The position numbers and the translations under genes were made by a program. This document shows, piece after piece, positions 2,540 to 9,592 of a stretch of DNA of 25,814 nt. Positions within the stretch are counted from its first letter, which is position 1. Each line of letters starts with the position of its first letter. The notes under the pieces were generated by a model that did no database searches, was not told where the DNA came from, and saw only the letters and a list, made by a program, of their open reading frames with translations. Origin of the DNA: a virus. Where the stretch lies: the IMG/VR virus record IMGVR_UViG_3300025131_000371, positions 1 to 25,814 of that record; one strand, given 5' to 3'.

Positions 2540-2992
2540 ATGGTAGAATCAGTCGACCTGAATGACCTCGAACTCGACGGTATCGAGGATGCAAGTGAAC
2601 CTAGTGCAGTAGCAGCCGGTCAATACATTATTCGTGTTGGGCAAGCTGAATTCCGTAACTCAAAAGCTGGCAATCCTATGCTCCAGCTAATCTGTGAACT
2701 GCCAGATGAGCCAAGTGCGGCAGGCATTTTTCATTTCGTTATGATGCCTACAAGAACAATGGAGTCAGATCAAAAGACCCGTAGAAAACTCGAGCTGAAG
2801 CGCCTGCTTCATGCTTTCAGTGTTCCTTACACTGCCGCAGGTTTCGATCCGGGTGCTTTAATCGGGCAAGAATGCGAGATGTATGTCTCCGTTGAGCAAG
2901 ACGACAATGGTGTTGATCGTAACCGTCTAACTCCTCCTCCTGTCCCAGAGGGTGCCAAAGCTCCCAAAGGTGACGCTATACCTTTTGAGTAA
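2540..2992 (+). CDS. Phage SSB-like protein with IPFE tail
   Basis: 150 residues. AGGA lies eight bases before the ATG after a 43-base gap. The middle (about 25-125) has the look of an OB-fold single-strand binding protein, with short alternating hydrophobic strands such as QYIIRVGQAEF, GNPMLQLICEL and GQECEMYVSVEQ. The N-terminus is acidic. The C-terminus is a Pro/Lys-rich linker ending DAIPFE, close to the DDDIPF tip through which bacterial SSB recruits partner proteins, though here one Glu follows the Phe. The position after exonuclease and Sak4 supports the SSB role, since Sak4 annealing is known to be SSB-stimulated in other phages. The fold assignment rests on pattern and context rather than a hallmark motif. 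Confidence 0.7.
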   Translation: MVESVDLNDLELDGIEDASEPSAVAAGQYIIRVGQAEFRNSKAGNPMLQLICELPDEPSAAGIFHFVMMPTRTMESDQKTRRKLELKRLLHAFSVPYTAAGFDPGALIGQECEMYVSVEQDDNGVDRNRLTPPPVPEGAKAPKGDAIPFE

Positions 2993-3029
2993 TAATTAGG
3001 CTAGGGCAAACGCTAGGAATCTCCTCTCC

Positions 3030-3054
3030 CTTATCTTAGGGGGTATAAGATAAG
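3030..3054 (+). repeat. Inverted repeat, 9-bp perfect stem
   Basis: CTTATCTTA (3030-3038) pairs perfectly with TAAGATAAG (3046-3054) around the loop GGGGGTA. It is immediately followed, without a spare base, by the next hairpin, so the two could stack coaxially. There is no T-run after it, so it is not a terminator on its own. Confidence 0.75.
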
Positions 3055-3083
3055 CCTGGGCATTTACGCATATGGTGCCCAGG
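3055..3083 (+). repeat. Inverted repeat, 8-bp GC-rich stem
   Basis: CCTGGGCA (3055-3062) pairs perfectly with TGCCCAGG (3076-3083) around a 13-base loop, TTTACGCATATGG. It is the strongest stem of the leader. The following bases, TAGCCTA, are a duplicate of the outer-stem sequence at 3151-3157. Confidence 0.75.
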
Positions 3084-3109
3084 TAGCCTAAGCTCTAGTA
3101 GGTGTTTTT

Positions 3110-3131
3110 CTTCAGATTTTCTGAGGTTTTT
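3110..3131 (+). terminator. Terminator-like hairpin with T5 tract
   Basis: CTTCAGA (3110-3116) pairs with TCTGAGG (3120-3126) around TTT, with one G-U pair, and is followed by TTTTT (3127-3131). The stem is short and only moderately GC-rich, so termination would be partial. It sits at the downstream end of the leader and could separate the recombination genes from the replication genes or act as an attenuator. It is forward-strand only: the opposite strand has an A-run. Confidence 0.45.
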
Positions 3132-3159
3132 CCCGTACGCTATTGCTCCCTAGCCTATT

Positions 3160-3441
3160 ATGTCAGTCTCAATAAATCCATTTCCCCGCAACAGCCCTCG
3201 ATATAGGTCCAACATGTCCCAAAGATACACCCAATATACGCATAAAATCAGCGTGCCTATGCGTAAAGAACTGTACGATTTCTATGCCCAATTTCCGCAT
3301 GGCATAAAAGCCCAGATCGCACGCATGTCCTTGCTCAAGATCAAGACTCTGCTTGAAAACGTGCCAGAGGACGAAATGAAGGCCCACCTATACGATCTAG
3401 TAAATGGCCAATACACACTAACAACCGCTAGTGAAAAATGA
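3160..3441 (+). CDS. Small hypothetical protein, possible DNA-binding
   Basis: 93 residues from the ATG at 3160, which has no clear ribosome site and lies two bases beyond the outer stem of the leader. An ATG at 3214 (giving 75 residues, MSQRYTQYTHKIS) has TAGG eight bases before it and may be the true start, in which case the leader is longer. A short strand-like segment HKISVPM is followed by two helices, ELYDFYAQFPHGIKAQIARM and LLKIKTLLENVPEDEMKAHL. A strand then two helices is compatible with a ribbon-helix-helix DNA binder, but this is a weak resemblance. The last A of the frame overlaps the next start (ATGA). Function unknown. Confidence 0.7.
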   Translation: MSVSINPFPRNSPRYRSNMSQRYTQYTHKISVPMRKELYDFYAQFPHGIKAQIARMSLLKIKTLLENVPEDEMKAHLYDLVNGQYTLTTASEK

Positions 3442-5270: not shown

Positions 5271-7783
5271 ACTATGATCTCGATGCAGGCGTAGACGGCG
5301 CCAATATCATCATTTTGTTTGACTTCCCTAACCCAGACGTAAAACGCTCAGGTAATATGCTCGGCGGTCGTTCTGGCTACGCCCTTCATCAGCTTCTCAA
5401 TCAAGCCAACATTCCAGTCTCTGACTGCTTAATAACATATTGCCACGATACACTAGACAACCGTGGCCTGATTAACACAAAAGGAGCATTCTCCAACCAC
5501 GGTGCTGAGCTTCGAGACCAAGTAGCAAACAGACTAAAGTCACTGGCCGGTAATATAATTGTGCCCGTGGGCCCGTTTGCCTGCGCCACGACGACCGGCG
5601 ATCATCGGCTAAAGTTTAATCGCGGCTCACTGACATTCAACGAGGAGTTACAGAAGAAAGTCTTGCCAACCTTTACTCCCACATCAGTTGCATTCGTACC
5701 AGCCGACCGCTTAATGTGCATCTGGGACTTACGTAAGGTGAAAGCCAATTCTCACCGCACTGGATTCCAACCACCCGAACGCACTATGCATATTAATCCT
5801 ACAGTCTACGAGGTCGAACAATTCCTAGAGTATTGTAAGATGTCAGACGATCCTACTATAGCCGTAGACATAGAGACACTTAACGGTGCCGTCTTTTGCA
5901 TTGGCTTTGCGCCCTCACCCAACGTAGCCATGTGCGTCAACTTCGATAACCGAACAGTCGAGGAAGAGATCAGACTTTGGCAACTATGCACCACCCTCTT
6001 ACAAGATCCATCAGTAATTAAGATAGGCCAGAACTTTATATTTGATATGTGGTTCTTAGCTTTCCGCCACAACTGCTTTGTACAAGGCCCCATAGAAGAC
6101 ACTATGGTAGCACATCACATTGTCTATCCAGACCTGCCGAAAGGACTCGGCGTGCTAACAACTCTGCACACAGACGAGCCATACTACAAAGAAGAGGGCG
6201 GCTACTGGAAAGGAGGCATAGGTGACCGCACCAGCTTTCTAAATTACAATTGCAAAGATTGCATTACAACCTACAAAGTATGGAATAAGATTAAGCTATG
6301 GGTAGCACCCGACAGCCCCTTCCATGCCATCTATCGCACAACTCTTAATACATATCCAGCACTAATCTTTATGATGTCTCGGGGCATTGCTATTAACCAT
6401 GACGAGCTTGCAAACGTACGGCAAACCATTGACAACGAGATACATGACATCGACGCCTCACTACAGGGTGTAGTACAAGAAGAGTCAGAGGATCCACTCC
6501 TAACTTTGAACTTCAACTCACCTAAGCAATGCATGAATTATTTCTACAACATACTAAAGGTCAAGCCTTATCTAAAAGGCGGAAAACCTACACTCGATGA
6601 CGATGCGTTGACAAGGCTAGCCAAGGGAACCCAAGCACGGCCAGGCTTATACTCAGCCCAGCTTATACAACAGCTACGGCAACGTGCCAAATATTCCGGA
6701 ACATACTTACAGATAAAGTTTGATCCCGACAAACGATTCCGATGCTCATACAATCCACGAGGTACTAAGACCGGCAGACTATCAAGCTCAAAGACAGTCT
6801 TTGGTACCGGCATGAACCACCAAAATCTGCCGCTTGAATTCCGCTCCTTCATGGTGCCAGACCAGGGCAAAATCTTTATCGAGATGGACAAGCGCCAGTC
6901 TGAGTGGGTCATTACAGCATACTTATCCGGTGACAAAAACATGATAAATATTTTGTCAGAGCAGAAAGACCCACACATCTCAACTGCCAAACTGATAACC
7001 GGCCTACCCGAACATGTTATCAAGGCCGAAGACAAAGCCATAGCCAAGACAACCAATCCAGAAGAGATCAAACGAACCCGTGAGCTTCTACTTGTCGAAG
7101 GTACTCCATTCCTAGACTTCGTACAAACTCATCAAGCATTTGTGCCTCGCACTATGTCATGCAGACAAGTAGGCAAGAAGTCCAACCACGCTCTGAACTA
7201 TATGATGGGTGCTAATCGATTCAGTATGGAATCGGGACTGACACTTGACGAGGCCGAGCGTGCCCGCGCACTCTACCTCTCTGCATACAGTAGATTGCCT
7301 GAATGGTGGGAAGAGATCCGCGCACAGCTAACAAAAGACCGAACTGTAACAAACATTATAGGGCAACCACGCAAATTTCTCGGCATCGTTGACGACAAGC
7401 TATTGAAGGATGCCGTAGCACACCTTCCTCAGAGTATCTCAGTCTGGATAGTTAATCAAGCCATGGCAAAAATCTATGAACTTGATCACCGAGCCGAGAT
7501 ACTATCCCAGGTCCACGATAGCTTACTCTTCCAGTACCCTTATGACGATCTATCTGGCTTAGAAATCTTCTGCTATCAGGCTATGGATGCCATGGAACCT
7601 AAGCTAAGAGCCGTAGGCGACAACATAGAACGTATGTTCTATGTATATACTGACATCAAAGTTGGCTTTGACGCCGCCAAGATGTATGATACTACTTTTA
7701 CCAACGTGCAAGAAGATGTTGAAAAATTAAGCAAACTCCGTAAAGATGACGAAATCTACCGAACTACTGAAGTCGCAATATAG
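5267..7783 (+). CDS. Family A DNA polymerase with N-terminal UDG-like domain
   Basis: 838 residues in three parts. Residues 10-160 resemble the uracil-DNA glycosylase superfamily: SGNMLGGRSGYALHQLL fits the G-x-F-x-G-x-(A/S)-G-x-x-L box, IIVPVGPFACATTTG the central strand, and TFTPTS sits where family 4/5 enzymes have HPS, so the catalytic His appears lost. Residues 195-345 are a 3'-5' exonuclease with D201/E203 (VDIET), N256 and D260 (GQNFIFD), and Y327/D331 (YNCKD), all DEDDy residues intact. Residues 355-838 are the polymerase: TGRLSSS (502-508), motif A D541/E546 (MDKRQSE), motif B R633, K637, N640, H641, Y645, and motif C QVHDS (748-752). It is the replicative enzyme of the phage. Two departures are noted: His at the E. 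coli Pol I 762 position, and Ser after the motif C Asp where Pol I has Glu. Confidence 0.93.
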   Translation: MNYDLDAGVDGANIIILFDFPNPDVKRSGNMLGGRSGYALHQLLNQANIPVSDCLITYCHDTLDNRGLINTKGAFSNHGAELRDQVANRLKSLAGNIIVPVGPFACATTTGDHRLKFNRGSLTFNEELQKKVLPTFTPTSVAFVPADRLMCIWDLRKVKANSHRTGFQPPERTMHINPTVYEVEQFLEYCKMSDDPTIAVDIETLNGAVFCIGFAPSPNVAMCVNFDNRTVEEEIRLWQLCTTLLQDPSVIKIGQNFIFDMWFLAFRHNCFVQGPIEDTMVAHHIVYPDLPKGLGVLTTLHTDEPYYKEEGGYWKGGIGDRTSFLNYNCKDCITTYKVWNKIKLWVAPDSPFHAIYRTTLNTYPALIFMMSRGIAINHDELANVRQTIDNEIHDIDASLQGVVQEESEDPLLTLNFNSPKQCMNYFYNILKVKPYLKGGKPTLDDDALTRLAKGTQARPGLYSAQLIQQLRQRAKYSGTYLQIKFDPDKRFRCSYNPRGTKTGRLSSSKTVFGTGMNHQNLPLEFRSFMVPDQGKIFIEMDKRQSEWVITAYLSGDKNMINILSEQKDPHISTAKLITGLPEHVIKAEDKAIAKTTNPEEIKRTRELLLVEGTPFLDFVQTHQAFVPRTMSCRQVGKKSNHALNYMMGANRFSMESGLTLDEAERARALYLSAYSRLPEWWEEIRAQLTKDRTVTNIIGQPRKFLGIVDDKLLKDAVAHLPQSISVWIVNQAMAKIYELDHRAEILSQVHDSLLFQYPYDDLSGLEIFCYQAMDAMEPKLRAVGDNIERMFYVYTDIKVGFDAAKMYDTTFTNVQEDVEKLSKLRKDDEIYRTTEVAI

Positions 7784-7964
7784 CCGGCTAATAGTTTTAG
7801 AGCATGTAGAGACAGACATTAATTCCAGAAAACATTACTTGTGCAGATGTTCCTGCGGCAATCATACCATAGTCCGAGAAGACGCATTGCGTCAAGGTCA
7901 TACAAAGTCGTGCGGATGTATGCGAGGAGCCAACAATAGAAAAAACTATGTCCCGGATAATTAA
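7746..7964 (+). CDS. Small CxCxC / SCGC zinc-binding-type protein
   Basis: 72 residues, overlapping the end of the polymerase gene by 38 bases and the next gene by 17. Two cysteine clusters, CRCSCGN (C33, C35, C37) and SCGC (C56, C58), flank a helix-like IVREDALRQGHTK. The pattern 'xRLxVLe...yxCxCxCGn...v...xLxxGxtkSCGC' is very common in small phage proteins, some of them associated with AP2 or HNH endonuclease genes. The family probably binds zinc and perhaps nucleic acid, but no activity is established. The ATG at 7746 has only TAAAG before it; no better start is present in the frame. Confidence 0.82.
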   Translation: MTKSTELLKSQYSRLIVLEHVETDINSRKHYLCRCSCGNHTIVREDALRQGHTKSCGCMRGANNRKNYVPDN

Positions 7965-9135: not shown

Positions 9136-9592
9136 GCCCGTTCTCATACTTAACGCCCCGGCCTATCTTCATAGCAGTCAGTTGTACACTTCGGTTACTA
9201 CCTAGCCTATTATAGCTACAATGGACCCAGCCACTATGCGGGTCACCCTTCTTATAGAACTCCAGGATCAGCTGATCAAACTCAAGGTTCTCTGCAATCC
9301 ACTTGGCTAACTCCCAGTTACTCACAGAGTAACACTCAAAATCTATCGCCTCGCCTTTGCAGTGCTGGCTCTTCTTACTCCCACCTACTGCCTTGTTTAC
9401 TTTCTCACCTCGTAGGCCAGATTTTACAGTCACAATACCAAACCTGTCTCTAACAGGTTGTAGTATTCTATTAGTTATTGCCGTCAAAGCAACTAACTGC
9501 TCCTCCGTAGGATCGTTTTTCAATCCTAGGCGTGCCGCCGTTGTAGAAGCAGTTAGCTCTTTTAGATTAAAATTGGCTGACAGTTTAATCAT
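9125..9592 (-). CDS. M15 peptidase endolysin
   Basis: 155 residues. SQHCKGEAIDFE (H77, G80, D84) and GWVHCSY (H124) are the zinc-binding HxxGxAxD and WxH motifs of the Peptidase_M15_3 group, which cuts peptide cross-links of peptidoglycan. The N-terminal NFNLKELTASTTAARLGL fits the usual start of these enzymes, and the length is normal. There is no signal peptide, so release to the wall depends on a holin; two candidates lie upstream on the same strand. It is the last gene of the minus-strand operon and its stop lies inside the convergent ATPase gene. The ribosome site is weak, and 29 bases separate it from the preceding gene. Confidence 0.92.
   Translation of the reverse strand: MIKLSANFNLKELTASTTAARLGLKNDPTEEQLVALTAITNRILQPVRDRFGIVTVKSGLRGEKVNKAVGGSKKSQHCKGEAIDFECYSVSNWELAKWIAENLEFDQLILEFYKKGDPHSGWVHCSYNRLGSNRSVQLTAMKIGRGVKYENGLIR

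Follow-up and report, generated by a model that had tools for sequence, protein, structure and literature searches.

The 167 nt that follow an SSB-like gene in this viral DNA (2993–3159 of the window, the whole stretch analysed, a viral record of 25,814 bases) very probably encode a real, evolutionarily conserved folded RNA, judging by base changes that preserve pairing in two relatives. The best reading, for which belief and doubt are about evenly balanced, is that this RNA is a cis-acting mRNA element, restricted to one lineage, through which translation of the small protein encoded downstream is gated.

The intercistronic gap and its relatives

The left arm of the window is a plus-strand replication and recombination operon. 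Its genes encode, in order, a PD-(D/E)XK exonuclease, a Sak4-like annealing ATPase and a DUF669/SSB-like protein, followed by three small genes and then a ParB-methyltransferase, a family A DNA polymerase and a primase-like protein. The genes overlap or almost abut, except for 43 nt 5' of the SSB-like gene and 167 nt 3' of it. The latter is the largest gap between predicted genes of the window, the next largest being 43 and 40 nt. An operon described from the sequence alone as otherwise gap-free is thus nearly so, the exception being the second gap of 43 nt at 2497–2539. Elsewhere in the window, a 72-aa gene at 7746–7964, overlapping the end of the polymerase gene, encodes a Cys-rich CRCSCGN...SCGCM motif; a similar domain is found in a 176-aa protein of contig IMGVR_UViG_3300007511_000061 (L026).

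The gap and the genes on either side of it are:

2540–2992, plus strand: upstream gene, DUF669 / phage SSB-like protein (PF05037, 4.3e-5; phrog_378, 2.8e-4)
2993–3159, plus strand: whole gap, intercistronic structured RNA element (folding z −4.0; compensation in the related contigs L028 and L004)
3160–3441, plus strand: downstream gene, 93 aa, no Shine-Dalgarno, possible ribbon-helix-helix protein

The repeats first noticed in the gap are all present. A perfect 10-bp outer inverted repeat joins 2997–3006 to 3148–3157, and its right strand ends 2 nt 5' of the ATG of gene 3160. Within it, hairpins at 3030–3054 and 3055–3083 abut with no spacer, and a terminator-like stem-loop at 3110–3126 is followed by T5. 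The gap has a minimum free energy of −64.6 kcal/mol, whereas shuffles average −47.8 (z = −4.0), and none of 200 shuffles was as low. Taken alone this z-score would be weak evidence; some other stretches of the window, coding ones included, also reach values below −4. Perfect inverted repeats with arms of at least 10 and a span of at most 200 number 4 in the window, with 4.1 expected. The outer repeat alone is therefore at chance frequency and the case rests on relatives, in which conservation with compensation raises the gap above chance.

The SSB-like protein and the protein encoded downstream served as queries in a search for relatives. Two contigs distinct from the window, L028 and L004/L042, have a gap at the same place; four others (L002, L003, L027 and L030) are identical copies, and the comparison comprises three distinct sequences only (window, L028 and L004). 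Over its first 117 nt the L028 gap is 85% identical to that of the window. It folds strongly, as does the L004 gap (z = −5.3 and −4.0, respectively). Three segments, GGGCAAACGnnAGGnAnCUCCUCUCCC, GCCUAAGC and UGCUCCC, are unchanged in all three aligned gaps, with much of the other sequence diverged. Two bases vary near the beginning of the long invariant block, and both fall precisely within helix P2 of the fold described below.

This fold was derived with RNAalifold and a pair count on the three sequences, the count being taken from alignment A5 with the variable interior of arm P5 left out by hand. Paired cells made up 97.9% of the total, compared to 89.0% in shuffles (0 of 500 as high). Ten base pairs changed on both sides with pairing kept, while a control in which the partner was slid gave 0–1. 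A conserved gap in close relatives and compensated pairs in its stems, the comparison proposed by the sequence-only reading, were thus both found in L028 and L004.

Consensus fold

The consensus derived from the alignment probably consists of two nested three-way junctions, P1-P2-P5 and P2-P3-P4, with these parts:

2997–3006, plus strand: P1, 5' strand; two compensated pairs with 3148–3157
3007–3011, plus strand: J1/2, invariant unpaired junction CAAAC, identical in 3 of 3 members
3012–3015, plus strand: P2, 5' strand, GCUA (GUCA in L004); pairs with 3084–3087
3016–3029, plus strand: J2/3, nearly invariant junction GGnAnCUCCUCUCC; all three members agree at 12 of 14 bases
3030–3054, plus strand: P3, the first abutting hairpin; 5 of 8 pairs compensated in L004
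3055–3083, plus strand: P4, the second abutting hairpin; two pairs compensated and two broken in L004
3084–3087, plus strand: P2, 3' strand, UAGC (UGGC in L004); pairs with 3012–3015
3091–3147, plus strand: probable P5 arm; AGC at 3091–3093 with GCU at 3145–3147, interior variable
3110–3131, plus strand: terminator-like hairpin and its T5, within P5; found in the window and L028 but not in L004
3148–3157, plus strand: P1, 3' strand; pairs with 2997–3006; 2 nt separate its end from the ATG of gene 3160

The P2 helix and the two invariant or nearly invariant junction segments had escaped the sequence-only reading. P2 has 4 bp, with one double change and one wobble change. P3 is not part of the thermodynamic minimum in the window or L028, where other pairing is preferred; thermodynamics alone disfavours it there, and P3 thus rests on comparison. 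The P5 arm, made of the AGC/GCU pairs and a variable extension that holds the terminator-like hairpin, is probable; its counted pairs never vary, and covariation is thus silent on it. The terminator-like hairpin has a longer, GC-rich stem in L028 and, being absent from L004, is not part of the core.

Geometry, possible function and alternatives

P1 spans the distance between two genes almost exactly. In the three members it starts 4, 4 and 5 nt 3' of the SSB-like stop codon and ends 2, 6 and 8 nt 5' of the next start codon, across a stop-to-start distance of 159–183 nt. This position and the exact spacing favour a cis-acting role. No Shine-Dalgarno sequence precedes the start of gene 3160 in the window, an observation weakened as support by its absence from other operon genes as well. 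When the stop region was forced to be unpaired, P1 was lost in the predicted structures of all three members, and the predicted accessibility of −15 to +12 rose from 0.38 to 0.57, from 0.57 to 0.64 and from 0.36 to 0.67, the smallest gain, that of L028, being slight. The structure over the downstream initiation region is thereby predicted to overlap the footprint of a terminating ribosome in each of the three.

These predictions suggest a mechanism in which P1 would mask the region where translation of gene 3160 begins. A ribosome ending the SSB-like gene would cover the 5' strand of P1 and open it, and expression of the next gene would be coupled to SSB translation by RNA unfolding. Such coupling is documented, including at a spacing of +52 nt in rpmI-rplT, and translational coupling usually falls off with distance (PMC12548453). 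Two features disfavour coupling here: 159–183 nt is long for it, and a simple form would have no need of the invariant junctions. The CAAAC and GGnAnCUCCUCUCC segments may bind a partner or form tertiary contacts that set the stability of P1, candidate partners being the SSB-like protein, the downstream protein or a metabolite.

From the sequence alone, the gap had been proposed to hold a leader RNA, acting in cis, that gates transcription or translation. The geometry of P1 makes translation the favoured target, and gating of transcription by the terminator-like hairpin is left unsupported by its absence from L004. "Leader" is imprecise for an element that lies between cistrons, in a gap that showed no promoter-like site. 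A broader proposal, which we find doubtful, is an undescribed class of phage mRNA domain in which P1 links one gene's stop codon with the start of the following gene, about 165 nt away, and the invariant double-junction core senses a phage protein or a metabolite, setting the ratio of the SSB-like protein to the downstream replication proteins.

The intercistronic position would suit an element for mRNA processing or stability, or a small RNA liberated from the mRNA, with a fold that guides RNase cleavage, protects the end of the SSB mRNA or acts in trans through a C/U-rich tract. The conserved CUCCUCUCC is complementary to a Shine-Dalgarno-like sequence. This explanation is rather unlikely, however: helices of 8–10 bp are short for RNase III, the C/U tract has no start-codon-proximal target common to the three contigs, and a small RNA would lack a promoter-like site in the gap.

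It also seems unlikely that the domain is a transcription attenuator or antitermination RNA on which termination by RNA polymerase at the T5 hairpin (3110–3131) depends. Phage RNAs such as HK022 put do act directly on RNA polymerase (PMC9378689), and the hairpin occurs in the window and L028, but it is missing from L004 though the remainder is conserved. Terminator-like sites are moreover common by chance (13 found and 7.7 expected in 10 kb), and no antiterminator pairing was seen.

Invariant unpaired junctions amid variable, compensated helices, together with a closing P1 that adjoins the start codon, bring to mind a ligand-binding riboswitch, in which the double-junction core would bind a metabolite such as a nucleotide and P1 would be the translation switch helix. 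We consider this quite unlikely. The element is confined to a single phage lineage, with no metabolic gene downstream, and a two-state pairing possible in the window and L028 (UUAGGCU/AGCCUAA, by eye) is lost in L004. There is also no Rfam riboswitch match, and the sequence-only reading had recognised no known riboswitch class. Curated Rfam families at the gathering threshold did not match the window, L028 or L042, and a permissive search found none in the window, its matches in L004 and L028 being weak, inconsistent and attributable to chance.

The least probable alternative is a DNA element, either a replication origin or an operator of the adjacent possible ribbon-helix-helix protein, with the repeats as double-stranded sites. 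The location among replication genes and the possible nature of the next gene product point this way; ribbon-helix-helix proteins often bind repeats close to their own gene. However, an RNA better explains why arms some 140 nt from each other show compensation and why unpaired segments are invariant, and no skew switch was found at the position of the gap in the window. Several of the kept pairs are G-U on the plus strand, pointing to it as the functional strand, though the folding z-scores do not distinguish strands.

A self-splicing intron was rejected because the SSB-like gene terminates at a stop codon of its own and the gap breaks no reading frame, as was a hidden small gene, no open frame in the gap being long enough to convince. 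ARAGORN found no tRNA or tmRNA in L001 (window part), L028 or L004.

Distribution, downstream gene and known systems

A covariance model, R1, was built from the three members (training scores 124.6, 116.9 and 96.4 bits) and found no copies beyond the known ones in 257 kb of loci and in 11 records. Relaxed pattern scans of viral and bacterial/archaeal collections returned only the known contigs and chance matches. Eleven candidates (L029, L037–L040 and L049–L054) were rejected as members of the family. Named phages gave no DNA match and no relative of protein 3160.

A more distant lineage, L006–L013, has an SSB-like protein of 57–59% identity. The gap after this gene (e.g. L010:5401–5472) is shorter. 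It contains one hairpin, of 11 bp, in which two pairs are compensated and the upper stem is invariant, as well as an AGGU-containing, Shine-Dalgarno-like stretch. On this comparison the hairpin is a second conserved RNA hairpin at this place. The version of protein 3160 in this lineage has no N-terminal extension of about 18–21 residues, and among the contigs seen the large RNA and the extension co-occur. An in-frame internal ATG of gene 3160 (3214–3216; AGGTCCAACATG) matches the start of the shorter homologues, so that two start sites are possible.

Protein 3160 matched no family. A profile of eight homologues gave a weak match (E = 0.42) over IFDFLENVPRGTKTAHIREAL to 2q2k, which was deposited as a hypothetical protein and which we take to be ParR of plasmid pSK41, a ribbon-helix-helix protein. 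The predicted models of protein 3160 are of low confidence, with helices compatible with this fold, and a structure search with a model of poor quality gave no meaningful match. The ribbon-helix-helix assignment is a lead only.

Several other observations concern this gene and its surroundings. In L004 the homologues of genes 3160 and 3438 are separated by about 220 additional nt (L004:3404–3624), which fold no better than shuffles. The N-terminal peptide MSVSINPFPRNSPRYRN of protein 3160 (window 3160–3213) is shared, at L026:5001–5051, with the 176-aa protein of L026, which is otherwise unlike protein 3160; the DNA of the two copies has synonymous differences, and the peptide is possibly a portable one. 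A 190-nt stretch upstream of the L026 gene also folds strongly, with a long outer stem (z −3.7), and does not match model R1. Near copies of the right outer arm and start region (ACCTAGCCTATTATA) lie just beyond the primase-like gene in both phages (window 9200–9214, where the copy is inside a minus-strand reading frame, and L028:9871–9892), in a number not above chance expectation.

The comparison gives a phage replication operon a defined RNA domain, with a compensated fold, named invariant bases and an exact stop-to-start geometry. Fold and geometry together allow one to ask whether phages tune the ratios of replication proteins with such domains, and the L006–L013 lineage, whose hairpin at this site is short and different, is a natural comparison.

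The RNA family appears to be undescribed, though its kind, cis-acting phage mRNA elements, is known. Like the RNA-unfolding cases of translational coupling (f1 VII-IX, MS2 coat-lysis and E. coli rpmI-rplT; PMC12548453), it surrounds a downstream start with structure that could be opened by a ribosome translating the gene before it; unlike them, it spans 159–183 nt and is a multi-junction RNA with invariant unpaired segments, and its coupling is a prediction. The autogenous translational operator of T4/RB69 gene 32, which encodes SSB, is likewise a structured RNA adjoining a phage SSB gene, with a translational role that is likely here too. That operator lies 5' of the SSB gene and represses it, whereas the RNA described here lies 3' of the SSB-like gene and before another gene (PMC535899); an operator of this type was rejected, as the element is not at the SSB translation start. 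The manA and wcaG motifs of marine metagenomes and cyanophages are also structured RNAs upstream of genes, partly in phages, with no assigned function, but they are widespread and precede metabolic genes, and manA is in Rfam, where the present element has no match (PMC2864571). HK022 put RNA is another cis-acting structured phage RNA; it consists of about 70 nt in two stem-loops near the early promoters, while the present element has about 160 nt in two three-way junctions and lies between genes (PMC9378689).
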